Below are positions 12,431 through 34,190 of a DNA stretch of 47,085 nucleotides, piece after piece (positions within the stretch are counted from its first letter, which is position 1; every line of letters begins with the position of its first letter). A program made the position numbers and the translations under genes. This DNA is from Pseudomonadales bacterium (GTDB taxonomy: Bacteria; Pseudomonadota; Gammaproteobacteria; Pseudomonadales; Azotimanducaceae), in the NCBI GenBank assembly GCA_016779565.1, contig JADHNJ010000017.1, positions 1 to 47,085 of the forward strand, read 5' to 3'. Below the pieces are notes generated by a model. That model did no database searches, was not told where the DNA came from, and saw only the letters and a program-made list of their open reading frames with translations.

Positions 12431-12769
12431 ATGGCTGTCTATTCCACTGACCAGGGCCGCCTGTGTTCTACTTGTAATCACGCGATTAAAGACTGCCAGT
12501 GCCGAGCGGAAAAAATCCCAACAGGTGCTGCCGGTGAGGTTCGCGTTCATCGTGAAATTAAAGGCCGCAGCGGCAAACCTGTTTCGATTATTAGGGGCCT
12601 TACATTACCGAAAGGCGAGCTCAAACAACTCTGCAAAACGCTTAAGAGAGCCTGCGGGGTCGGAGGTAGCATTATCGGCCAAGATATTTTGATCCAAGGC
12701 GATCAACGTCACAAAATTCTAGAGCTGCTCACCGCAACCGGTATCGACGCCTCTTTGGGTGGCGGCTAA
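12431..12769 (+). CDS. yciH: SUI1/eIF1-family translation factor YciH
   Basis: A 112-residue protein with the SUI1 fold (about 35-112), including KPVSIIRGLTLPKGELKQL and the CGVGGSIIGQDILIQGDQR block that matches eIF1/SUI1. The N-terminal 30 residues carry four cysteines (C12, C15, C22, C24; CxxC-x6-CxC), which suggests a small zinc-binding element. Bacterial YciH can act in start-codon discrimination in vitro, like eIF1/IF3, and is linked in E. coli to stress-time repression of translation. The length is close to the E. coli protein (108). It is placed between an unknown gene and sseA; the stop overlaps the sseA start by one base (TAATG). Confidence 0.95.
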   Translation: MAVYSTDQGRLCSTCNHAIKDCQCRAEKIPTGAAGEVRVHREIKGRSGKPVSIIRGLTLPKGELKQLCKTLKRACGVGGSIIGQDILIQGDQRHKILELLTATGIDASLGGG

Positions 12770-13614
12770 TGAGCCAGCTCATCGACTGCTACGAGCTTCG
12801 GGCAAGCCTTAAAGCGCTCGATAATCTGATCATTTTTGACTGCCGATATGATCTACAGAACCCAGACCTTGGCTTTGTACAATATCAACGAGATCACATA
12901 CCGACCGCTCATTACTTAAATTTGGCCAAGGATTTAAGCGGCCCTCATCACCCTGGGAAAACCGGTCGCCACCCCTTGCCAGACCCTGATGATTTGCGTC
13001 AACGTCTCGGCGACTTAGGCGTGGGACCAGATTCATCCGTCGTTGCCTACGACGACGGCAGCTGCGCCTATGCCTGCAGGCTCTGGTGGCTATTACGTTG
13101 GTTGGGACATGCAAAAGTGTCGGTTTTAGATGGCGGATATCAACGCTGGCAGAGTCTTCGACACCCTGTATCATCATCGGTCTCAACGCCAACACCTCAG
13201 ACCTTACCTCGACGTCAAGACCTCACCCGTCAGGTTAATGCCGAGCAAGTATTAGATCACAGTCCCATCAGAAAACTTATCGATGTGAGAGCACCTAGTC
13301 GCTATCGAGGAGAGGACGAACCTCTCGATCCAGTGGCGGGACATATCCCCGGGGCTCAAAACCTGCCTTTTCTTGAGAACCTAACTGACGGTGTTTTTAA
13401 GACTGCTGATGACCTGGCTATACAATTCGAAGCTTTAGGCTGTCGCCAAACTGACGACATTGTTTGTTATTGCGGCTCGGGGGTGACTGCGACCCAGATG
13501 ATCTTTGCCTTTATCGAAGCCGGGTTTAACGAGCCGGCGCTTTATCCTGGCTCGTGGAGCGATTGGATAACCCAAAGCGACAGGCCCGTTGTTACCGGAG
13601 CCGATCATCGCTAG
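12769..13614 (+). CDS. sseA: 3-Mercaptopyruvate sulfurtransferase-type rhodanese
   Basis: A 281-residue tandem-rhodanese protein, the same length as E. coli SseA. The N-terminal inactive domain (about 1-135, with HIPTAHYLNL and VVAYDDGSCAYACRLWW) is followed by the catalytic domain (about 155-281, with LIDVRAPSRYRGE and AGHIPGAQNLP). The catalytic loop reads CYCGSGVTA with the active Cys at 235. CGSGVTA is the mercaptopyruvate-type loop; classical thiosulfate rhodaneses have CRKGVTA. The enzyme transfers sulfane sulfur from 3-mercaptopyruvate to thiol acceptors. It overlaps mnmC by 26 bases if the TTG start of mnmC is right, and its start is coupled to yciH. Confidence 0.93.
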   Translation: MSQLIDCYELRASLKALDNLIIFDCRYDLQNPDLGFVQYQRDHIPTAHYLNLAKDLSGPHHPGKTGRHPLPDPDDLRQRLGDLGVGPDSSVVAYDDGSCAYACRLWWLLRWLGHAKVSVLDGGYQRWQSLRHPVSSSVSTPTPQTLPRRQDLTRQVNAEQVLDHSPIRKLIDVRAPSRYRGEDEPLDPVAGHIPGAQNLPFLENLTDGVFKTADDLAIQFEALGCRQTDDIVCYCGSGVTATQMIFAFIEAGFNEPALYPGSWSDWITQSDRPVVTGADHR

Positions 13615-15355
13615 GCCGTATCGCACCGAGGCTGCAGCTATTCGGTGGGACGGCCTCTTGCCCACAGCGATTGAATACGATGATAGCTATTGGGGGCAAG
13701 GAAACCCTGCAGAAGAAAAACGCTTTGTATTCCCGCTGCAGCACGACTTAACCCAGAGAGCCAAGGTTTCAGATTTTTTTGTGATTTTGGAACTCGGATT
13801 TGGTTTTGGCCATAATTTCCTGCAGACCCTTACTGAATGGCGCAAAACAGGTTCGACATCACAACTGCATTATATCGCGATAGAACGATCACCGCCCTCT
13901 AAAGCAGTGCTCAAGCAGACCCATGAAAGGCTTGATTCCGAGGGTTGGCAGCGCCTGTTATCTATCTATCCGCCACAGCTTGAAGGATGGTACGTCGTAT
14001 GGCTTGAGCAGAACGTTCGACTTACGTTGATTTTTGAAGATGCCACGACAGCTTTACCGCGTCTAGACGCTAAGGTTGACGCGTTCTATCTCGATGGCTT
14101 TAAACCAAGTTCTAATCCCGCATTGTTTAATCCATTTGTGTTCAATGCCCTGCAAACCCTTGCACAACCTGGCGCGACCGTGAGCAGTTACTCCGTTGCT
14201 GGCACCGTCAAACAAGGGCTCAAAGCCGCAGGCTTTAGCATCGAGAAACGTTCAGGATTTGGCCACAAAAGATCAATGCTGTTTGCCAGTGCGCCTCAAC
14301 AATGGCGAGGACAGCGTTTTTTAAAGCCGCTCACGCAAATTGTCGGAGCTGGCATTGCAGCCCAGTTTTTAGTGCGCAGTTTTGATCGGTTTGGACTTAA
14401 ACCAACGGTTTTCGCCGACCCTAACCATCCTGGCGCTTCAAACCAACCAGTATTCAATATCTATCCTCAAATATCTTTAGATCGCGACCGGCAGTCTGAG
14501 TTTGCTATTGCCGCCAACTACTTTGCTCTAAACAACCTGAGCAACCTAGATCAGACTACATTGTATTGGCAGAGCACCAATGTGCAGAAAACCCAGAAAA
14601 TGGCGCGACTAAGCCAACTACTTCCTGCGGACTATCTTTCTCACGAGGACGGCGCTTTTGCTTATCATCAAGCCGGCACTTGGCGACCGACCGAGCTTGT
14701 TGAGACGCTGCGCGCAAAGATCATTGGCTTTAAAGCTCACGACTCTAATCTAGAACTATTAAATGCCACCGACCAGCGTTGTGCGCCGGCAGCGGTTACC
14801 ATCCTTGCCACTGGCCAAGGCTCAGTGGCGCTCTGCCGATTGCCCCTGAAATCAATTTACGGACAAAGTATTGTCGTCGAGACCCTGCAGCCCCTACCAG
14901 GCCCCTTGATCGGGGATCTCAGCATTACCCCTTTAGGGGAATCGACTTATTTAATTGGTAGTACTTATCGACCAGAGGGCACGCCTGATTTAGGCGAGGC
15001 ATTTCGCACTCAAAGCCTTCTAGAGCGATTAACTGAGCTCGTTGGGGACCAAAAAATTCTGCTAAGACGCGCTCACCAAGGTTATCGGATTGCCCTACCA
15101 GATCGGACGCCAGTGGTTGGCAGGCTACCGATCGGTGCGCTTAAAAACCTTGCCTCATCTACCAAGCTAGCGCCAGGTCTCACGGATGCTTCTGGGTTAA
15201 TGGTCTTAATGGGCCTTGGATCTCACGGCGCGACGCTAGGCCCGCTCGCCGCAGAGGCCATAACAAGCCAGGTAGTCGGCGTCCCAAGCCCTTTGCCTCG
15301 CGACCATCTTCAGTTACTCCGACCCGACCGTTTCTTGAATGCTCTAACCCCTTAG
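13589..15355 (+). CDS. mnmC: Bifunctional tRNA (mnm5s2U34) biosynthesis protein MnmC
   Basis: A 588-residue bifunctional enzyme for the last two steps of 5-methylaminomethyl-2-thiouridine formation at tRNA wobble position 34. Residues 1 to about 235 form the SAM-dependent methyltransferase (FVILELGFGFGHNFLQT, then FYLDGFKPSSNPALFNP and FGHKRSMLFA). From about 245 the FAD-dependent oxidoreductase domain begins with the dinucleotide motif IVGAGIAAQFL and includes FNIYPQISLDRD and IGSTYRPEGTPDL. It is shorter than E. coli MnmC (about 668). The third glycine of the FAD motif is Ala here. No ATG exists near the expected start; TTG at 13589 is chosen, inside the end of sseA, and is uncertain. The stop is one base from the convergent stop of serA. 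Confidence 0.93.
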   Translation: MLPEPIIARPYRTEAAAIRWDGLLPTAIEYDDSYWGQGNPAEEKRFVFPLQHDLTQRAKVSDFFVILELGFGFGHNFLQTLTEWRKTGSTSQLHYIAIERSPPSKAVLKQTHERLDSEGWQRLLSIYPPQLEGWYVVWLEQNVRLTLIFEDATTALPRLDAKVDAFYLDGFKPSSNPALFNPFVFNALQTLAQPGATVSSYSVAGTVKQGLKAAGFSIEKRSGFGHKRSMLFASAPQQWRGQRFLKPLTQIVGAGIAAQFLVRSFDRFGLKPTVFADPNHPGASNQPVFNIYPQISLDRDRQSEFAIAANYFALNNLSNLDQTTLYWQSTNVQKTQKMARLSQLLPADYLSHEDGAFAYHQAGTWRPTELVETLRAKIIGFKAHDSNLELLNATDQRCAPAAVTILATGQGSVALCRLPLKSIYGQSIVVETLQPLPGPLIGDLSITPLGESTYLIGSTYRPEGTPDLGEAFRTQSLLERLTELVGDQKILLRRAHQGYRIALPDRTPVVGRLPIGALKNLASSTKLAPGLTDASGLMVLMGLGSHGATLGPLAAEAITSQVVGVPSPLPRDHLQLLRPDRFLNALTP

Positions 15356-22006: not shown

Positions 22007-22671
22007 CAGAATCTTAGAACCTCTTTGACAAAAGGTATCGTCAGCCGTCTTTGTGCTCGTAGACTCTCGTCAGCTAACTGCGTCAGGGTATTGATCAGCA
22101 TGCCGATTTCTCTCGGCGATCGATCCAATAAAAACTGCAATACCTCGTCGGGCATTGGCAAGCTATTCTCATCCGCGAATCGCATCAAAACTCGACGCTT
22201 CTCCGAATCGCTGAGTTGCCCAGCCTGCAACCAGTGCATAGCCCGACACCTAGAGGCAACATCTGGTAGCGCAAACACTGCCTCCGGCAGCGGTACTTGC
22301 GACGCCATCACTAACCAAGTTGCGCCATCAGCTGCCAAATGGTTAATCAAATCATAAAGTGCCAACTCCCATGGTTCCTCGCCCAAAATGTGGTCTAAAC
22401 CATCCAATGCAAGCACATCAAATGACCTAAGATCCCTCAGCACCTCTGGCGCTAAGTCCCTTGAATCGAGCGCCAGATAGAATACACGACCGCCTTCCTG
22501 CTCCCTCTGATGGCATAATCCCTGGAGTAAATGGGTTTTACCCGATCCTTGGACGCCACTAATCCACAAGGGCTCGGGCGAAACCGATAGCGCGCGCGGA
22601 CCTAAATCACCCTCGTATCGCTGAAGGGTCAAGTTCCGTTGTAATCGGAACTCGAAAGTTAACTGCGCCAT
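22006..22671 (-). CDS. hda: DnaA regulatory inactivator Hda
   Basis: A 221-residue AAA+ protein that, bound to the DNA-loaded sliding clamp, stimulates DnaA-ATP hydrolysis and so prevents over-initiation of replication. The N-terminus MAQLTFEF fits the clamp-binding peptide (QLxLxx type). The AAA+ region has Walker A GVQGSGKTHL (about 39-48), Walker B VLALDGLDHI, sensor 1 WLVMASQVPL and the sensor-2 area with SPREIGMLINTL. It has no DnaA DNA-binding domain, as expected. The start is ATG 22671, one base into the TGA of the upstream gene (TGATG); a GTG directly before it is also possible. Its stop overlaps the murG ATG. The perM-hda order matches Pseudomonas. Confidence 0.95.
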   Translation of the reverse strand: MAQLTFEFRLQRNLTLQRYEGDLGPRALSVSPEPLWISGVQGSGKTHLLQGLCHQREQEGGRVFYLALDSRDLAPEVLRDLRSFDVLALDGLDHILGEEPWELALYDLINHLAADGATWLVMASQVPLPEAVFALPDVASRCRAMHWLQAGQLSDSEKRRVLMRFADENSLPMPDEVLQFLLDRSPREIGMLINTLTQLADESLRAQRRLTIPFVKEVLRF

Positions 22672-23918
22672 CACACCGAGGCGCCTCCCTCATCGGTGAC
22701 TGGCTTAGCAGGAACTAGGTCATCCTTTCGATCGTCGTTCATCGTACTTGTCGGAGTCTCTTCTTCGGCGGAATCAGCGCTCCCGAGTCGTGCCGCACTA
22801 TCTTCAGAACTGCTCGCATCATTCGCTGATGACTCCAAGGCTTCGCTCATTGGATCGCTGGCATCGCCTTGATACCAAGCGCTCTGCAAGTATTGCTGCA
22901 GGAAAAATCGAACCAAAACCATCAGTACTGCGGCAACAGGTAGCGCCAGGAGCACGCCAGCAAAGCCAAACAACTGCCCACCGGCTAGAACTGCAAAGAT
23001 CACTGCGACCGGATGCAGCCCGATACGATCGCCAACAAGCCATGGCGTAAGGAAACTACCTTCCAAAATCTGCCCTAAAACAAACACGCCGAGCACATAA
23101 GCAGGATGCAGCCAATCTTGAAATTGATAAGCTGCCGCAACAGACGCTAGGGTCAGACCTAAGATAAAGCCTAAATACGGCACGATACTGGCGAGACCGG
23201 CAATCAACCCGATAATCAGTGCCATCTCGATGCCCAGTAGACCTAGGCCAATCGAATAGAACAGCCCAAGTAAAATCATCACCCAGAGTTGTCCGCGGAT
23301 AAATGCCGCCAGCATATCATCGCCTGATTTCACCAGCGCTCTGGTGACCTTAAGCCCAGGACGCGGCACCAAGGCATCTAGTCGCTGGGTAATGATGTCC
23401 CAGTCCCGCATGAGATAAAAAGCGACTACCGGCGTGAGCGCAAGGGTCATCATGGCGCTAAAAATAGCTTTACCGGACGCCGTTAACTGGTCCAAAACGT
23501 AGCCCAGCACATCACTCGACTGCTGCCATTGACCTAAATATTCTTGGGCTAAGCCTCTGACATCAAGCGCACCCACCTGGACCCCGATCCACTGAGTCAG
23601 TAAAGGCATTAGCCGTTCCTGCAGCCATGCCAAAGTGTCAGGGAGCCCACTGAGCAAGTCGCTCGCCTCTTGGGCCAGCAAGGGAATCAACATCACCAAA
23701 AGCAAAGTGAATAAGCCAGCGATCAAAAGAAACACCAGTGCTGAGGCAAACGCGCGTCCCAACCCCCACGCCTCAAGCCGATCCACCCAAGGATCGCCAA
23801 GGTAGGCAAATAATGCGCCAAGAAAAAAAGGTGTCATGATTGGGCTGAGCAAATCAAACACGACTAAAAGCCCAGCACCTAGGGCAAGCAGCAAAATCAG
23901 TCTAGCGGATATGTTCAT
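22671..23918 (-). CDS. AI-2E/PerM-family membrane transporter
   Basis: A 415-residue inner membrane protein of the AI-2E (PerM/TqsA) family with about eight transmembrane segments. Family features are the N-terminal hairpin (LLVVFDLLSPIMTPFFLGALFAYLGDP), the cytoplasmic amphipathic region (LPDTLAWLQE), the central TLALTPVVAFYLMRDW, and the C-terminal core GLIAGLASIVPYLGFILG, SFLTPWLVGDRIGLHPVAVI and FGFAGVLLALPVAAVLMVL. The last 75 residues are a hydrophilic, Ser/Asp/Glu-rich tail likely disordered. Substrate unknown; some members export autoinducer-2 or act as Na+/H+ antiporters. In Pseudomonas the gene lies beside hda, as here. Confidence 0.92.
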   Translation of the reverse strand: MNISARLILLLALGAGLLVVFDLLSPIMTPFFLGALFAYLGDPWVDRLEAWGLGRAFASALVFLLIAGLFTLLLVMLIPLLAQEASDLLSGLPDTLAWLQERLMPLLTQWIGVQVGALDVRGLAQEYLGQWQQSSDVLGYVLDQLTASGKAIFSAMMTLALTPVVAFYLMRDWDIITQRLDALVPRPGLKVTRALVKSGDDMLAAFIRGQLWVMILLGLFYSIGLGLLGIEMALIIGLIAGLASIVPYLGFILGLTLASVAAAYQFQDWLHPAYVLGVFVLGQILEGSFLTPWLVGDRIGLHPVAVIFAVLAGGQLFGFAGVLLALPVAAVLMVLVRFFLQQYLQSAWYQGDASDPMSEALESSANDASSSEDSAARLGSADSAEEETPTSTMNDDRKDDLVPAKPVTDEGGASV

Positions 23919-26949: not shown

Positions 26950-27795
26950 TCAGTCATCCACAATCGAAATGATCGGCGCGGTAGGGCCCTTTGCTTGCGT
27001 CAATTGGCCCAAAGTGGCTGCTGCAAGATTAGCAAAGACGCGGCCTACTGCTGACTCAGAATCCAGCGCTACCGGTTCGCCCGCATCTGACCGCGCGCGT
27101 GTTTCTGCGGTCAGCGGTATTTGAGCCAGCAGCGGCACCGCATATTCTGCTGCAACTCGCTCACCGCCCCCTGAACCAAAAATATCTGCGGCTTCTCCGC
27201 AGCTTGGACAGATAAACTGACTCATATTCTCAACCATGCCAAGCACGGGCACAGCGACTTTACGAAACATTTCGATGCCCTTGCGGGCGTCCAACAATGC
27301 GATATCTTGCGGCGTTGTCACAATCACGGCGCCCGACACGGGAACTTGCTGGGCGAGGGTCAGCTGGATATCCCCGGTCCCTGGCGGCATGTCGATAACA
27401 AGATAATCCAGGCCCGGCCACGCTGTTTGCGAGAGCATCTGCTGCAGCGCTCCGCTGGCCATCGGGCCTCTCCAGATCGCTGGAGTCTTACTCGAGGCCA
27501 AAAAACTCATCGACATACAATGAACCCCGTGGCCAACCACCGGGACCAGTTGATTATCGACGACATCGGGACGCGTATCGCTGGGCAAGCCAAAAAGTGC
27601 GCCTTGACTAGGGCCATAAATATCCGCATCCAACAAGCCAACCTTATGACCAGCCTGCATGAGTGCGACCGCTAAGTTGGTCGCAACCGTCGACTTGCCA
27701 ACGCCGCCCTTTCCTGAAGCCACAGCGATAATCTGATTGACGCCTACAATCTTCGATGCAGCACTTTTAAGCTCTTCTGGCACAGCCTCTCTCAC
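26950..27795 (-). CDS. mrp: Mrp/ApbC-type Fe-S cluster carrier ATPase
   Basis: A 281-residue ParA-like ATPase that binds and transfers [4Fe-4S] clusters. It has the deviant Walker [10 protein letters not shown] (about 27-35), the switch [10 protein letters not shown], Walker [13 protein letters not shown], and the cluster-binding CxxC (Cys196, Cys199) in FICPSCG. It is shorter than usual at the N-terminus, where the MIP18-like domain should be. The GTG at 27795 is the first start codon in frame, but 27 codons immediately upstream (to a TGA at 27877) read like the missing domain (ending [11 protein letters not shown]) without any ATG, GTG or TTG, only a CTG at 27861. The true start is unresolved. 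Divergent from metG; 62 bp ahead of dcd. Confidence 0.9.
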
Positions 27796-27937
27796 TACCC
27801 TAGAAAACGCGAATTGTACCTCTAGCTGCCGAGAAAATCCCGCGACTTCTCTGAGTTTCAGCGGAGTATCTAGCGATCACGGCTATCGCCAATCTCGGCA
27901 ATCGGCTAAACTTGCGGCTTTCAGATCGAAGACCGTC

Positions 27938-29947
27938 ATGACCGACCAGCGACGTTTACTGGTGACCAGCGCCCTGCCCTATGCCAATGGTGCAATCCAT
28001 TTGGGCCACATGCTCGAACATATTCAGACCGACATCTTCGTACGCTTCCAGCGGATGCAGGGACATGAGTGCATCTACGTTTGTGCAGATGATGTCCATG
28101 GCACGGCTGTGATGTTAAACGCTGATGCCGCCGGACAAGACCCTTTGGCCTACACGCTCGCAATTACCGAGGAGCACAAAGCCGATTTTGGCGCATTCGA
28201 CATCAGTCATGACTGGTACGATACCACCCACTCATCTGAAAACCGTGAATTGGCCAATACCATCTACGAACGCCTGCGGGATTCTGACAACATTAGAAAG
28301 TCCGATGTCGCCCAGTTATTTGATGCTGAAAAGTCGCTCTTCCTCGCAGATCGCTTTGTGCTAGGCAACTGTCCCAATTGTCGAGCTCCAGATCAGTACG
28401 GTGATAATTGCGATGCCTGCGGCGCGACCTACGCAGCCACCGACCTGATCAACCCCATCTCTAAATTCTCTGGCGCTGTTCCTGAAGTAAAGACTTCGGA
28501 ACATATCTTTTTTGCATTATCCCGCCATACAGAATTTTTAACGCACTGGACCCAAAGTGGTGCCTTACACCCTGCTGTCACCAACAAACTTGCGGAGTGG
28601 CTTGAATCAGGTCTGCAAGATTGGGATATCTCAAGAGACGCACCCTACTTTGGTTTTGAAATTCCTGACGAACCGGGCAAATATTTTTATGTTTGGCTTG
28701 ATGCGCCGATCGGCTACATGTCAGCCTGCTTGCAGTATTGCAATGCCAACGGACTTGCGTTTGAGGATTTTTGGCGACCCGACTCTAAAGCTGAGGTACA
28801 TCACTTTATCGGGAAGGACATCATTAACTTCCACGCGTTATTTTGGCCAGCAATGCTTCATGTCGCGGATTTCAGAACGCCAACAAAGGTTCATGCCCAC
28901 GGCTTTCTAACCGTCAATGGCGAGAAAATGTCGAAATCCAAAGGCACCTTTATCAATGCCAGAACCTACCTAGACGTGCTCCCCGCGGGCTACCTTCGCT
29001 ACTACTTTGCGTCCAAGCTCAACAGCAGCGTCGCTGACCTTGACCTGAACCTCGAAGATTTTGTGCAAAAGGTGAATGTCGATCTTGTCGGCAAAGTCGC
29101 CAACATCGCTAGCCGATGCGCTGGATTCATTAACAAACAGTTTGAGGGGCAAATTCGCCGGAGTACCGGCACACCTCTACTGGCAACCTTTCAATCTGCT
29201 GCTCACGAAATCAGCGAATATTACGAGACGCTCGAGTACAGCAAAGCGATGCGCGTCATCATGTCTCTCGCTGACCAAGCCAATCAGTTTATTGCAGAGC
29301 AACAACCTTGGCAGTTAATCAAACAGGCAGAAACGCGGGACCAAGCAGAAGCTGTTTGCGCCGATGGCATTAATCTCTTTAGGCTTCTGGCGCTCTATCT
29401 GAAGCCTGTTTTACCGAGTTTTGCCGAGCAATCTGAGGCCTTTTTGAATGTACCACCGCTTATTTGGGAAGATCATAAACAGCTACTAGAAGATCATAGC
29501 ATTTCGCCCTTCAAAGCCTTGATCGAGCGCATAGATACCGCTCAGGTCGAAGCCATCCTCACCAAAGAACGGGCCAACGCCGACCCTGCGGCTTCCGAGC
29601 CAGTGTGGCCGTCGACCCCAGCAACAATCGACATCGATACCTTTGCGGCGGTAGATCTCAGAGTTGCTCGTATCATCAAGGCTGAAGCTGTGGCAGGCGC
29701 TGACAAGCTGCTCGCACTGACCCTAGACGTGGGTGATCACGAGCGAACTGTGTTTTCTGGGATAAAATCGGCATACCGACCCGAAGATCTTAAAGGGAAG
29801 TTTACGGTCTTAGTCGCAAACCTAGCGCCGCGTAAAATGAAGTTTGGCACCTCAGAAGGCATGGTGCTCGCTGCCGGGCCAGGCGGCGAGGAGATTTTTT
29901 TGATACATCCCGACGCCGGCGCCAAACCGGGTATGAAAGTTAGCTAA
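27938..29947 (+). CDS. metG: Methionyl-tRNA synthetase
   Basis: A 669-residue dimeric class Ia synthetase. Features: [20 protein letters not shown] with the HIGH-type HLGH (about 22-25), the zinc knuckle [18 protein letters not shown] (four cysteines, about residue 143-160), the KMSKS loop in [11 protein letters not shown], the anticodon-binding helical region (about 395-540) and a C-terminal tRNA-binding OB-fold domain (about 565-669; [37 protein letters not shown]) that also dimerises the enzyme. Length matches E. coli (677). The start ATG 27938 gives the canonical N-terminus; the longer frame runs into the mrp promoter region and is rejected. Five bases separate it from rsxA, so it may drive the rsx operon. 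Confidence 0.97.
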
Positions 29948-29952
29948 TTTAC

Positions 29953-30537
29953 ATGTTCATAGAAGCCCTGACGGTGCTCTTCGCTGCAATCTTCGTCAAC
30001 AATTTCGTTGTTGTGCAATTTCTCGGCTTGTGTCCATTTTTAGGCGCTAGCCAAAGACTTGAAAGCGCTCTGGGGCTCGCCGGCGCAACCCTATTTGTGC
30101 TCACTCTCAGTGCCGGCGCGTCTTATTTACTAGAACATTACCTCCTGCAACCCTTTGGTTTAACAAGCCTGCGAATATTGGTCTTCATTATGGTTATTGC
30201 AGCCTTGGTACAACTGATGGAAATTGTGATCCGCGCAACCCAACCCCTGATTCATGCTTTTTTAGGCGTTTATATCCCGCTGATTACGACAAACTGCATG
30301 GTGCTGGGCGTCGCGCTCATCAACGCGCGGCAAAGCCAATCTCTGATCGAAGCTTTAGCGCTGGGCCTAGGTGCTAGCCTGGGCTTTGGACTACTACTAC
30401 TTTTGTTTGCTGCCCTCCGAGAGCATCAACAACGTTTGAACGTGCCTAAAGTCTTCCAGGGAGCGGCTATCAACCTGATTACCGCCGGTCTTATCGCTTT
30501 GGGATTTTCAGGTTTTACCGCGATGCAGTTCGTATGA
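29953..30537 (+). CDS. rsxA: Rsx/Rnf electron transport complex subunit A
   Basis: A 194-residue integral membrane subunit with six helices, homologous to NqrE. The start [32 protein letters not shown] contains the conserved VxxNFVVxQFLGxCPFLG motif with the cysteine that helps bind the [2Fe-2S] cluster shared with RsxE; the second half has [18 protein letters not shown] with the matching TTNC cysteine. Length equals the family (193). First gene of a five-gene rsx set starting five bases after metG. It overlaps rsxB by four bases (ATGA). Confidence 0.97.
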
Positions 30538-31427
30538 TCACCTCATACCTGCTTACCCTGGCAGGTTGCGCCCTGCTAACCATTGTTATCGTCTATCTTG
30601 CTCGCAAACATTTTGTTGCAGACATCAACGTTCTTGAATCTAGAATCGAGCAAACGCTTCCCCAAACCCAATGCGCGCAATGCGGCTATCCTGGTTGCAG
30701 ACCCTACGCAAAAGCCATAGCAGCTGGCGAGGCAATCAATCGATGTCCCCCGGGCGGCGAGACCGTTATCGAAGCCCTTGCAGATTTGCTTAATCGACCC
30801 GTGACACCCCTCGCTGATGATTTAACCCCTCAGCCTGTGCCGCTGCTCGCAAGCATTAGAGAAGCCGAATGTATTGGTTGCACCCTATGTATCAAAGCTT
30901 GCCCGGTTGACGCCATTATCGGCAGTCAAAATCAAATGCACACGATTATTAAGGCTGACTGCACTGGCTGTGAGCTTTGTTTACCACCCTGTCCTGTTGA
31001 CTGCATCGACCTGCTTCCGCAACGCTCCGTAGTCGCGCAGGCTCAGCCCCGACCGACCTTCAGTGAACCTTGTATTTTTTGTAGCGCCTGCGTCAGCGCT
31101 TGCCCAAAGGAACTTGAGCCCCAGCATCTGTTGCTCGCCTTTGACGCGCCCGAGCACATAGCTCATCAGCAGTTGTCCGCCTGTGTCGAATGCACCCTCT
31201 GCGATCAAGCCTGTCCGAGCGATCTACCCTTGACCGAGACCTTTAAAATTATGAAGCAAAACGAGGTCATTAGAGCCGCTGAGGTTGCCGCTGCAGCTGC
31301 CACACTCGCTCGTTTTGAGAAACGACAGCAACGATTAGCGGTTGATGATGCGGACTTAATTATTCGTCCAAAAGCTCAGGACGCCCAAGCACTGATTGCT
31401 GGTCTTAAAACTGGTAGCAAGCCATGA
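30534..31427 (+). CDS. rsxB: RsxB-RsxC ferredoxin fusion protein (elongated RsxB)
   Basis: A 297-residue iron-sulfur protein; ordinary RsxB/RnfB in gammaproteobacteria is about 190. It has an N-terminal anchor helix (4-22), the RnfB 4Fe-4S domain (Cys47, 50, 55, 71 in CAQCGYPGC...RCPPGGE), and two RnfB-type [4Fe-4S] motifs (Cys113/116/119/123/ and Cys143/146/149/153-157). From about residue 178 it continues with [12 protein letters not shown] (Cys180-190) and [17 protein letters not shown] (Cys217-227), then a helical tail with [11 protein letters not shown]. That last 120 residues resemble the ferredoxin region and the FEARQARL tail of RsxC. There is no separate rsxC: rsxD overlaps the end by four bases. 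The fusion would hold about five clusters. See findings. Confidence 0.9.
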
Positions 31428-32377
31428 ACAGCCAGCAGATCATGATCCATACGGGTTATGCGCTGATGCCGGGGTTTTTACTAGCGACCTACATCTTTGG
31501 CATCGGCATCGTCATCAATGTCATTGTTGCGATCATCGCGGCCCTGATCCTTGAAACCTGCCTGCAGCGGCTGTCACAAAAACCCACCTCCGGCGTTGCA
31601 ACGAGCAGCGGCTGCCTAACCGCCGTGCTATTGGCACTGTGCTTGCCGCCGTTGCTGCCCCTGACCTACCTCATTTTTGGAGTCATCTTTGCTTTGGTTT
31701 TTGGGAAATATGTCTATGGCGGCTTGGGCCAAAATCTGTTTAATCCCGCCATGGTTGGCTACGCCGCACTCATTTTGTCGGCGCCGCTGGCGCTGTCTCA
31801 ATGGGTACCGGTTTCTTCTGCGGTTACCGACTGGCAGACTGTGGTCGCCATTAAGCTGCAACTCGTTCAAGCCGACGGGTACACGGGTGCCACAGCACTT
31901 GATCTCCTCCGAAATCGAGCCGGTCTCACCATGGCGGAATATTGGCTATCTGCAGAGTCTGTATTCGGCGATCAGGTACTGATTGCGCTCGGTTATCTCA
32001 TCGGCGGAGTCTACCTACTACGCAAAAACATCATCACCCTAAGCTTACCAATCGCTATGCTCCTCGGTTTGCTTATCCCCAGCTTACTCTTTTATGACGC
32101 TGGCAGTTCCGGGAGCATGGGCTCACCAGTTTTGCATGCCTTTGCAGGTGCCACCGTAATAGGTGCTTTTTTTATCATTACTGATCCGGTCAGCTCGCCA
32201 AACACTCAGGTTGGTCTGCTGATCTATGGCGTGATGATTGGCTTGTTGACCTTCCTCATACGCAGCTTCGGCGCTTATCCGGATGGCTTGGCGTTCGCCG
32301 TCCTGCTCGCTAATGCTTGCGGCCCGCTCATTGATCACGTTGTAAGGCAAATGCAATCGCCGGGGCAATTATCATGA
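31424..32377 (+). CDS. rsxD: Rsx/Rnf complex subunit D
   Basis: A 317-residue membrane protein homologous to NqrB, somewhat shorter than the usual 350. About eight to ten helices are visible. The conserved [19 protein letters not shown] motif is present, and the covalent FMN site is [12 protein letters not shown] with Thr157 as the expected phosphoester acceptor (family motif [S/T]GAT). Late motifs [21 protein letters not shown] and [18 protein letters not shown] are family-typical. The start overlaps the rsxB stop by four bases and the end overlaps rsxG by four bases. An ApbE flavin transferase would be needed elsewhere. Confidence 0.96.
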
Positions 32378-32919
32378 GAACAGCTGGCCTGACCCTCATT
32401 ACGGCAGCCCTCTTGTCGGCCTTACTCATTGGACTAGTCTCAATCGGAACCAACCCGATCATTGTCCAAAATCAGGTCGCTCACGAAGCACGCATTCTGC
32501 GCGAGGTCGTTAAAAGCTCGACCGCAACGCTCGAACCTTTAAATGACCAAAACACAAAGTTCCGAGTCCTAGAGGGCAACGAATTAACGGGCTATTTGCA
32601 AAAAATCGAGACGACCGAGGGTTACAATGGCACCATCACAGCCTGGCTCGCGACAGATTTGCGCGATGCCATATTGAATCTTGCCACCCTTGAACACGAA
32701 GAGACTCCAGGTATCGGCGATATCATTAACAACGACTCAGTTTGGCTTGAGCAATTTATGACGACCCGCTTAGCAAGCCATACCTATCGACTCCAAAGGG
32801 AGGGCGGCGACTTCGACCATGTTACCGGCGCTACCGTGACCAGTCGCGCCTACATCGCCATGCTGAATAATGGCATGCTCGAGCATCTCGAGCACAAAGC
32901 GTCTTACCCCTATGAATAG
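32374..32919 (+). CDS. rsxG: Rsx/Rnf complex subunit G
   Basis: A 181-residue protein, shorter than the usual 205-215, homologous to NqrC. It has one N-terminal membrane helix (LTLITAALLSALLIGLVSIG, about 6-25) and a periplasmic FMN-binding domain with the flavinylation motif VTGATVTSRA (Thr154 expected to carry FMN) and the family segment EHEETPGIGD, in which the glutamates are conserved. Start and stop overlap rsxD and rsxE (ATGA type and eight bases). Confidence 0.95.
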   Translation: MRTAGLTLITAALLSALLIGLVSIGTNPIIVQNQVAHEARILREVVKSSTATLEPLNDQNTKFRVLEGNELTGYLQKIETTEGYNGTITAWLATDLRDAILNLATLEHEETPGIGDIINNDSVWLEQFMTTRLASHTYRLQREGGDFDHVTGATVTSRAYIAMLNNGMLEHLEHKASYPYE

Positions 32920-33589
32920 TTTTATTAATCAGGCAAACCAAGGACTTTGGAAGGATAATCCTGCGCTCGTCCAGCTTTTGGGCTTGTGTCCCTTGTTGGC
33001 GGTCAGTCAAACGCTGGTTACCGGTCTCACCCTAGGGGTGATCACATTAGGCGTTTTGGTCGCTTCAAATGCAGTCATCAGTTTGATTCGACGCTGGTTA
33101 GTTGAAGATATTCGTCTACCAATGCAGATTCTGGTCATCGCGACAATGGTGACTCTCGCCGACCTCACCATGCAAGCGATGTTCTTTGACATGCATCAGC
33201 GGGTCGGGCTGTTTATCGCCCTTATCGTTACCAACTGCACAATTTTAGCTAGAGCCGAGCTGTTTGCGAGACGCAATCGCTGGTGGCACGCCGTAGCCGA
33301 TGGTTTTTGGATGGGGCTAGGTTTCTTATGGGTGATTGCACTGCTGAGCGGCATCAGAGAGATTCTTGGACGAGGCACGCTCTTTGATGGACTGACCCTG
33401 ATACTTGGACCTGAGGCCGAAGCTTTTCAAATGGTGATTCACACGTCGCCGCTGCTTTTGGTAGCGCTGGCGCCAGGTGCTTTTATTACGTTAGGGTGTC
33501 TGGTTGCCCTCAAAAATTTGATGGATATCGCTTATGAATCGAGACAAACGCGTCGCCTTTCTCACCCAGCTGCGCAACGAAAATCCTGA
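32912..33589 (+). CDS. rsxE: Rsx/Rnf complex subunit E
   Basis: A 225-residue membrane subunit homologous to NqrD and paired with RsxA. The start NQGLWKDNPALVQLLGLCPLLAVSQT carries the conserved NPxxVQLLGLCPxLAV motif with the cluster cysteine, and LFIALIVTNCTILARAELFA gives the TNC partner. Several helices follow. I chose ATG 32912, overlapping the rsxG stop by eight bases; an upstream GTG/ATG frame extends further into rsxG and is not needed. The C-terminal 20 residues overlap the start of nth by 56 bases. Confidence 0.95.
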   Translation: MNSFINQANQGLWKDNPALVQLLGLCPLLAVSQTLVTGLTLGVITLGVLVASNAVISLIRRWLVEDIRLPMQILVIATMVTLADLTMQAMFFDMHQRVGLFIALIVTNCTILARAELFARRNRWWHAVADGFWMGLGFLWVIALLSGIREILGRGTLFDGLTLILGPEAEAFQMVIHTSPLLLVALAPGAFITLGCLVALKNLMDIAYESRQTRRLSHPAAQRKS

Positions 33590-34190
33590 ACCGACCACGG
33601 AGCTCGAGTACCGCGACACGTTCCAGCTGCTCATCGCGGTCATTTTATCCGCCCAATCCACCGATGTTGGGGTTAACAAGGCAACGGCTAAGCTGTTTCC
33701 GGTGGCAGGTACACCAGCTGCCATTGCCGAACTTGGTGTTGAGGGATTAAAGCCCTTTATCAAAACGATAGGTTTGTTCAATACCAAAGCCGCCAACATC
33801 ATCAAAACCTGCAAGATCTTACTCGCAGAACATAATGGCATTGTCCCAAATGATCGAGTCGCGCTCGAGGCCCTGCCAGGGGTTGGCAGAAAGACTGCTA
33901 ATGTCGTGCTCAATACGGCTTTTGGCGCGCCAACAATGGCTGTAGATACGCATATTTATCGCGTCTCTAATCGGACGCGTTTTGCGCCGGGCAAAACAGT
34001 TCTACAAGTTGAAAAGAAATTGCTAAAAGTCATCCCGGATGAATTTATCCGGGACGCTCATCACTGGCTTATTCTTCATGGCCGCTATATCTGCACGGCT
34101 CGGGCACCAAAATGCGCCGCTTGTTGTGTTTTTGACCAGTGCGAGTATCCCAGGCGTATCAAAATCGCCAACGAGCTAGATACCCCCTGA
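33534..34190 (+). CDS. nth: Endonuclease III
   Basis: A 218-residue DNA glycosylase/AP lyase that removes oxidised pyrimidines. The helix-hairpin-helix with catalytic Lys is LPGVGRKTANVVLNTAFG and the catalytic Asp is in VDTHIYRVSNRTRF. The C-terminal [4Fe-4S] ligand set is C-x6-C-x2-C-x5-C (CTARAPKCAACCVFDQC). N-terminal KRVAFLTQLR and LLIAVILSAQSTDVGVNKAT are typical. The start overlaps rsxE by 56 bases; the N-terminus aligns with E. coli Nth from its first residue, so this start is likely right. The rsx-nth linkage is conserved in gammaproteobacteria. Confidence 0.97.
   Translation: MNRDKRVAFLTQLRNENPEPTTELEYRDTFQLLIAVILSAQSTDVGVNKATAKLFPVAGTPAAIAELGVEGLKPFIKTIGLFNTKAANIIKTCKILLAEHNGIVPNDRVALEALPGVGRKTANVVLNTAFGAPTMAVDTHIYRVSNRTRFAPGKTVLQVEKKLLKVIPDEFIRDAHHWLILHGRYICTARAPKCAACCVFDQCEYPRRIKIANELDTP

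Follow-up and report, generated by a model that had tools for sequence, protein, structure and literature searches.

An Rsx/Rnf operon without rsxC, whose RsxB carries the C-terminal part of RsxC, in a gammaproteobacterial family

The NADH site on RnfC/RsxC is treated as a defining end of the Rnf/Rsx electron-transport complex, and the question raised here is what remains of such a complex when the gene for this subunit is missing from its operon. The case comes from a Pseudomonadales bacterium of the family Azotimanducaceae (GenBank assembly GCA_016779565.1, contig JADHNJ010000017.1, positions 1 to 47,085); this whole stretch of 47,085 nucleotides is called the window below. Open reading frame (ORF) calls at 29953-34190 give the order rsxA-rsxB-rsxD-rsxG-rsxE-nth, with overlapping genes and no rsxC, and the product of rsxB is joined to a part of RsxC. 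Every gene of the operon was identified by Pfam and NCBIfam scans, as follows:

29953..30537, plus strand: rsxA, membrane subunit (Pfam Rnf-Nqr, 171 bits; cysteine columns kept in the family)
30534..31427, plus strand: rsxB, fused to the 3' part of rsxC, 297 amino acids
31424..32377, plus strand: rsxD, flavinylation site Thr157 (TIGR01946, 292 bits, above the cut-off)
32374..32919, plus strand: rsxG, flavinylation site Thr154 (Pfam FMN_bind, above the cut-off)
32912..33589, plus strand: rsxE (NF009070, 266 bits, above the cut-off); start set by eye, the longest ORF beginning at 32870
33534..34190, plus strand: nth, endonuclease III, downstream neighbour (TIGR01083, 271 bits, above the cut-off)

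RsxG also matches TIGR01947, at 96 bits, below the cut-off of 102. The operon is compact: the start of rsxD overlaps the stop of rsxB by 4 bases, no extra gene lies between rsxA and nth, and there is no room for rsxC. An earlier note, made from the sequence alone, had reported the gene order without rsxC, the 4-base overlap that leaves no space for a gene, an RsxB of 297 residues with two extra [4Fe-4S] motifs, and flavinylation motifs at RsxD Thr157 and RsxG Thr154. The ORF coordinates, the Pfam and NCBIfam scans and the cysteine positions agree with it throughout, and the flavinylation motif D..TGAT lies at both threonines.

What, then, are the extra residues of RsxB? From its N terminus the chain runs through an anchor helix, the RnfB 4Fe-4S domain, the RnfB two-cluster ferredoxin, eight more cysteines, and a helical tail, and the following parts can be delimited (pLDDT, predicted local distance difference test):

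30534..30611, plus strand: membrane anchor helix of RsxB, residues 1-26 (AlphaFold helix 2-26, block pLDDT 85-98)
30849..31013, plus strand: RsxB's own two-cluster ferredoxin domain, residues 106-160 (Pfam Fer4_21)
31047..31226, plus strand: two-cluster ferredoxin domain, derived from RsxC, residues 172-231 (NF003454, 8ahx_C, Foldseek)
31227..31424, plus strand: helical tail, derived from RsxC, residues 232-297 (AlphaFold helices 233-275 and 281-292; NF003454 match to model position 471)

Residues 8-169 match rnfB (TIGR01944, 210 bits), and residues 172-280 match positions 361-471 of the 556 in the RsxC model NF003454 (69.8 bits). When residues 165-297 are taken alone, this RsxC model is the best in NCBIfam (76.9 bits, model positions 362-472) and rnfC TIGR01945 the second best, and the best PDB sequence for the tail is Azotobacter vinelandii RnfC (8ahx_C, E 5e-9). 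The eight further cysteines form two motifs of the type CxxCxxCxxxCP (Cys 180/183/186/190 and 217/220/223/227) and are invariant in all 61 fused proteins that were aligned, out of 72 available with the window's own. A direct comparison was made with two hidden Markov models (HMMs), one for the RsxB ferredoxin and one for the RsxC ferredoxin, each built from 52 sequences of named genomes. There are 79 fused rows (77 from the family, G037 and L079), of which 73 had the motif spacing that this test needs; all 73 tails score higher with the RsxC model (medians 65.7 versus 11.6 bits), and all 73 first parts score higher with the RsxB model. For the window, the tail gives 52.0 bits with the RsxC model versus 17.9 with the RsxB model, and the first part gives -0.9 versus 100.0.

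The AlphaFold model of the fused RsxB has a mean pLDDT of 77.9, with block means of 90-97 over residues 171-250 and values below 50 at residues 116-153, inside RsxB's own ferredoxin. Foldseek places RnfC chains at ranks 1-4, three of them with E <0.001. Since HMM scores, PDB sequence matches and Foldseek agree, the window protein is RsxB fused to the C-terminal part of RsxC, without RnfC_N, the FMN (flavin mononucleotide)/NADH domain or the linker; the earlier note had likewise found the last 120 residues to look like this part of RsxC.

Is the fusion peculiar to this contig? The family sample comprised 150 genomes, 143 of which match the window RsxB at E <= 0.001, weak ferredoxin matches included. 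The locus was fetched and read in 119 of them (120 loci), and the other 31 stand outside the architecture count, with weak or no RsxB matches, contig ends, loci not fetched, or no RsxB on the piece (G026, G031). A survey of relatives had been proposed in the earlier note, and it recovered the same fusion of RsxB with the RsxC ferredoxin at 77 of the 120 loci (77 of the 119 genomes). An assembly or frameshift artefact was rejected, because in these 77 genomes the fusion is one open frame, and two of them are single-contig assemblies (G076, G120). All 11 genomes drawn from the window's genus carry the fusion, which occurs in many genera, and hydropathy calls the anchor helix in 74 of the 77 fused family rows, the other three not being callable.

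The remaining loci hold a range of states: one fusion of RsxB with NADH and ferredoxin domains (G037), a separate ferredoxin-only RsxC at 6 loci, an RsxC without a detected N domain at 22, an RsxC with all domains at 13, and no RsxC at one. These domain calls were made by phmmer with few queries, and an undetected N domain is not proof of its absence. Within genus g37 alone, we find a separate RsxC with NADH and ferredoxin domains (G078), the fused form that retains the NADH domain (G037), a separate ferredoxin-only RsxC (G131, G138), and the ferredoxin fusion (G060, G094, G111, G122, G145). The ExEP motif of the NADH/FMN domain, which we take to bind flavin and NADH, is gone in 12 of the 23 family proteins in which no N domain was detected, the G037 fusion being one of the 12, and is missing in none of the 13 family RsxC with an N domain and none of 54 named RsxC; the FMN glycine motif is kept in 22 of the same 23 and in all of the 13. 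The loss of ExEP in proteins without the N domain fits a history in which NADH handling was lost before the domain itself. Set among these relatives, the window fusion represents one stage in a loss of RsxC that is both graded and convergent. It should be mentioned that a separate full RnfC of about 450-530 amino acids occurs at loci L028-L033, there with RnfD adjacent, and also on contigs of G035, G059, G093 and G121; wherever the metG locus could be located, it lies on a different contig. In G093, three RnfC-like genes are above the cut-off.

Did the fusion arise once or several times? On a FastTree tree of RsxA, the N-terminal part of RsxB and RsxD (164 rows), no fewer than 8 switches between fused and unfused are required inside the family, and 7 are needed on a 66-row IQ-TREE subset. 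Forcing all 41 fused rows of this subset into one clade costs 575 log-likelihood units, and the approximately unbiased (AU) test on the quick tree gives p 4e-113; for this test 48 of 109 family rows were dropped (4 on long branches, G074, and 43 near-duplicates), and the outgroup consisted of 5 of the 55 named rows. On a tree of the neighbouring gene metG, all architecture states together need 21 changes over 137 rows. The fused rows are not one clade, and the fusion is therefore convergent; a single ancestral fusion for all fused genomes was rejected on the same tree changes and AU test. If domains once lost are not regained, the separate fused clades imply that fusion occurred repeatedly, unless the operon moved between lineages. 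As a separate observation, locus L021 of G074 lies on a small contig whose rsxA-B-C-D groups with a metagenome-assembled genome (MAG) from outside the family (L147), not with its own family, and this contig is possibly contamination or a transfer.

Is the missing module encoded elsewhere? The window's own assembly has 2.41 Mb in 85 contigs and is 80.9% complete; neither RnfC_N (PF13375) nor the Complex1_51K NADH/FMN domain (PF01512) was found in it, and its sole match to the RsxC model is the fused tail (model positions 361-473). A full rsxC elsewhere in the genome was thus rejected, within a genome that is 81% complete, and the absence of the NADH/FMN part from the operon, which the earlier note had pointed out, extends to what has been assembled. 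RsxC is above the cut-off in none of the 11 genomes by which the genus is represented in the family sample, and only three of the 77 fused family genomes have another RnfC above the cut-off (G030, G044, G095).

The sites of the membrane core are, on the contrary, retained. RsxA Cys27 and Cys115, which we take to be the RnfA ligands of the membrane [2Fe-2S] cluster, are kept in 72 of 75 fused family rows (3 gaps) and in 73 of 75 (1 gap, 1 Arg), respectively. RsxE Cys25 and Cys108, which correspond to the RnfE ligands of this cluster, are each kept in 70 of 70; the flavinylation threonines are kept in 74 of 75 rows for RsxD Thr157 and in 69 of 70 for RsxG Thr154, with one gap each. ApbE is present in the window's own genome (G000:C67) and in 13 of 15 genus genomes. 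Because these core redox residues show hardly any exceptions in the fused family rows, the fused complex is probably active, with a partner other than NADH.

How might it work? As described in the accessible parts of two papers, the electron path of Rnf is U-shaped and runs from the RnfB iron-sulfur clusters through the RnfA/E [2Fe-2S] cluster, the RnfG FMN, the RnfD FMN/riboflavin, the RnfC [4Fe-4S] pair and FMN to NAD(H) (PMC11889175, PMC12174285). We consider it fairly likely that the window encodes a reduced Rsx complex, in which rsxB has been joined to the 3' part of rsxC and NADH has been exchanged for a soluble one-electron carrier. A deletion, whose route is suggested by the relatives, would have joined rsxB to the 3' part of an adjacent rsxC and removed the N-terminal, FMN/NADH and linker domains. 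The single chain in the window keeps the RsxB anchor and ferredoxin together with the two-cluster ferredoxin and tail of RsxC, and every station up to the RnfC cluster pair remains encoded and conserved, with only the last one lost. Most likely, the former RsxC clusters would then exchange electrons with a soluble one-electron carrier, for example a ferredoxin or flavodoxin, instead of NADH. As for direction and client, which we infer from this arrangement, the ion gradient could help to deliver low-potential electrons at the RsxB end, and these would probably serve iron-sulfur or reductive maintenance in the cytoplasm.

Several points weigh against this proposal. The own genome is only 81% complete. 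What the loss of the NADH domain and the fusion left behind could also be a structural remnant, comparable to NqrA with respect to RnfC in the part of the work available to us (PMC4014512). Furthermore, reduced loci elsewhere do decay further: those of Pseudomonas have lost membrane [2Fe-2S] ligands, and the fused loci of G255 and G279, outside the family, have rsxA and no recognisable rsxD, rsxG or rsxE on the piece.

Among other explanations, the one that survives best, although we regard it as unlikely, is that NADH oxidation is supplied in trans, by an unlinked FMN/FAD (flavin adenine dinucleotide) NAD(P)H dehydrogenase that docks where the RsxC flavodomain has been lost. The RsxC ferredoxin pair is strictly kept, which is what a flavoprotein still feeding electrons into it would predict, and in Rnf this pair bridges the RnfD riboflavin and FMN, according to the sections seen of PMC12174285. 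However, the own genome, at 81% completeness, yielded no RnfC_N or Complex1_51K in a search that did not extend to FNR-type reductases, and the compact operon offers no extra gene from rsxA to nth. It is considerably less probable that the complex is decaying, with the loss of RsxC a sign of relaxed selection and the fusion protein a remnant. Named RsxC-less loci, from Pseudomonas and others, do show such signs (a residue other than Cys stands at RsxA 115 in 11 of 12 rows and at RsxE 25 in 11 of 11), as do the G255 and G279 loci without recognisable rsxD/G/E and the orphan RsxB without an anchor helix at 12 fetched class loci. In the fused family rows, however, almost every row retains these ligands and the flavinylation sites, the eight grafted cysteines are invariant across 61 diverse proteins, and the fused form occurs in many genera.

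That the system works as the SoxR-reducing system of E. coli is most improbable, and SoxR reduction was rejected as its general role. RseC is above the cut-off in 75 of the 150 family genomes and 7 of the 11 in the genus, though not found in the 80.9%-complete own genome; in an E. coli two-hybrid assay, as far as the consulted part of PMC11729352 goes, RseC contacts RsxB and RsxD, and ApbE is present as noted. SoxR itself, however, is rare: it is above the cut-off in 15 of the 150 family genomes, in 5 of the 77 fused ones (G034, G061, G085, G103, G115), and in none of the 11 of the window's genus, the 81%-complete own genome included. The weakest alternative, an ordinary long RnfB with extra ferredoxins as in clostridial or archaeal RnfB, was rejected and has next to no chance of being right: its extra C-terminal ferredoxin motifs are superficially alike and whole-protein phmmer also finds 9eri_B and polyferredoxins, but the NCBIfam, PDB, HMM (73/73 tails) and Foldseek (ranks 1-4) results all point to RsxC, and the family shows intermediates.

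How far do such fusions extend beyond the family? Across the class (184 genomes), RsxB matches at E <= 1e-6 in 170 and RsxC at E <= 1e-15 in 120, of which 111 are above the cut-off; a ferredoxin-only RsxC match was obtained in the own genome and six others, five of which were fetched (not G328). In G241, outside the family, the operon is complete and includes the fusion. G279 (L263) and G255 (L265) have rsxA followed by an anchored fusion, with no recognisable rsxD/G/E on the fetched piece, and the RsxA of G255 has His at the Cys27 position (by eye). G239 (L264) and G201 (L266) have orphan fusions of RsxB with the RsxC ferredoxin between metG and nth, and at these two loci no membrane subunits were seen and no anchor helix was called. 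Loci of named genomes, the best 80 from one scan, are mostly ordinary RnfB, and L079 (Chromatiales MAG Ww634) is the only named fusion among the matches listed. The intact-core fused form is thus mainly a trait of the window's family, with G241 and L079 outside it.

A second kind of graft involves the RsxC tail alone. The test set consisted of RsxC-less loci of named genomes, class members and one family genome, with 34 of 36 RsxB used (2 were too short); RsxC-less refers to the locus, no RsxC having been found genome-wide for the class members and 12 named genomes having been searched whole, one of which (L082) has RsxC above the cut-off elsewhere. The RsxB extensions match RsxC tails in 30 of 34 (E <= 1e-3, against 104 RsxC pieces) and RsxC bodies in none of the 34. 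None of 680 shuffled controls match an RsxC tail and one matched a body; matches with E between 1e-6 and 1e-3 are weak, and the controls are shuffles, not other Ala/Lys/Arg-rich helices. The four RsxB of this set without a tail match are L082, L252, L267 and L279. Loci with a separate RsxC gave 76 RsxB tails for comparison, of which 54 are shorter than 30 amino acids and none of the 22 longer ones match RsxC tails (13 of 89 loci were dropped because the needed motif was absent). No membrane helix is seen in most RsxC-less RsxB, that is, in 21 of the 23 from named genomes and in all 12 class orphans. The orphan RsxB loci number 24, half from named genomes and half from the class; nth lies on the piece at 19 of them, and metG or nth at 23. 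The long RsxB of Burkholderia/Paraburkholderia (L126, L139, L145) carries an extension that matches the RsxC tail without its ferredoxin domain.

Eleven Pseudomonas/Stutzerimonas loci have the order metG-rsxA-B-D-G-E-nth without RsxC (L084, L097, L099, L106, L112, L124, L125, L143, L144, L152, L157), and their RsxB, too short at the N terminus to hold a membrane helix, ends in the RsxC tail. In all 11, RsxE 25 and RsxA 115 are non-Cys and both flavinylation threonines are kept; at RsxA 27, 9 loci have Asp and 2 a gap, and RsxE 108 is still Cys in 10.

Taken with the fused form of the window, these loci lead us to a tentative proposal, to which we give a little under an even chance: that proteobacteria which lose RsxC tend to retain its end, deletions having grafted the 3' part of rsxC onto rsxB in many lineages with two main outcomes, that the tail docks a shared client, and that the ancestral job of the locus was not NADH oxidation. 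In one outcome, that of the window, an anchored RsxB with the RsxC cluster pair and an intact core would form an NADH-independent, one-electron, ion-coupled redox machine. In the other, a soluble RsxB would bear only the helical tail of RsxC, with a core that lacks most [2Fe-2S] ligands or with no core, usually still beside metG and/or nth. The tail might be a docking element for a client common to all forms.

Some loci outside these two outcomes are of interest in their own right. L104 and L105 (Pseudohongiella-type) have a full RsxC, yet all four RsxA/RsxE [2Fe-2S] columns are non-Cys, and in the core tree the two sit together on a very long branch. L090, of the same type, has a ferredoxin-only RsxC and Ala in place of RsxA Cys27. 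RsxG was not detected in these three. Genus g11 (L225, L227, L228, L230) shows metG-[hydrophobic ORF]-rsxB-ferredoxin-only rsxC-rsxD-nth; RsxA, RsxG and RsxE are not recognisable there, and three L228 ORFs match no Pfam family at E 1e-5.

How does the window system compare with known ones? It resembles RnfABCDGE/RsxABCDGE (Azotobacter vinelandii Rnf, PDB 8ahx, and E. coli Rsx) in its gene order with nth downstream, in an RsxA/D/G/E core with [2Fe-2S] ligands and flavinylation sites, in the RsxB anchor and ferredoxin, and in the RsxC ferredoxin domain. Unlike them, it has no separate RsxC and no RnfC_N and FMN/NADH domains, and what it keeps of RsxC, the ferredoxin and the tail, belongs to the same polypeptide as RsxB. 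It shares a long C-terminal extension with the long RsxB of NF005415/PRK06991 (284 amino acids), which is presumably betaproteobacterial, but matches positions 1-137 of that model only (202.6 bits versus a cut-off of 281). It also resembles Na+-NQR, with a homologous core and with NqrA, the RnfC homologue, having lost cofactors as well (PMC4014512, PMC12174285, both in part); NQR, however, lost RnfB and gained NqrF, whereas the window keeps RsxB and the RsxC clusters and loses only the NADH/FMN part of RsxC. In the portion at hand of Meheust et al. 2021 (PMC8238504), two-subunit NQR/RNF-like systems have an RnfD-like domain joined to an NAD-binding domain, with two apparent subunits. The window is likewise a reduced Rnf-derived set with flavinylated parts, but it has A, D, E and G, and its RsxD has only PF03116 and no PF00175.

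No description of an RsxB-RsxC fusion or of an RsxC-less Rsx was found in the open-licence literature, consulted mostly at the level of titles and abstracts. We regard the fused form as a real, widespread and convergent variant of Rsx/Rnf; a defining subunit is absent, and it is not to be filed as a complete NADH-linked Rnf. The convergent erosion of the NADH site, with the other stations conserved, is a natural experiment that parts the ion-coupled core from NADH, and it raises the question of the role of Rsx in bacteria that have no SoxR. Other lineages, in which only the tail was grafted, suggest that RsxB has a conserved partner, with nth and metG as frequent neighbours. Annotation should be corrected too, many of the long proteins named "RsxB" having the look of remnants of RsxB and RsxC.

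The neighbourhood upstream of the operon holds two genes:

27737..29947, plus strand: metG, upstream neighbour of the rsx locus, start uncertain (homologue on 107 of 120 family pieces)
26950..27795, minus strand: apbC/mrp, iron-sulfur cluster carrier, divergent from metG (NF008669, 336 bits, cut-off 348)

The first of these is presumably metG, judging by its sequence. metG or nth is on the piece at 117 of the 120 family loci, both are at 79, and at least one is at all 78 fused loci; nth is present on 89 of the 120. ApbC beside metG fits an iron-sulfur theme and proves nothing. A plasmid search gave 27 records, all below 60% identity, one being listed as covering 80% of the query. Elsewhere in the window, positions 13589-15355 encode a bifunctional protein with Methyltransf_30 and DAO domains, which we take to be MnmC-like, preceded by a two-domain rhodanese at 12769-13614. 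On the minus strand, 22671-23918 encodes a transporter that matches a chloramphenicol efflux family below the cut-off (266 bits versus 675), and a MurG-like glycosyltransferase lies near this transporter gene.

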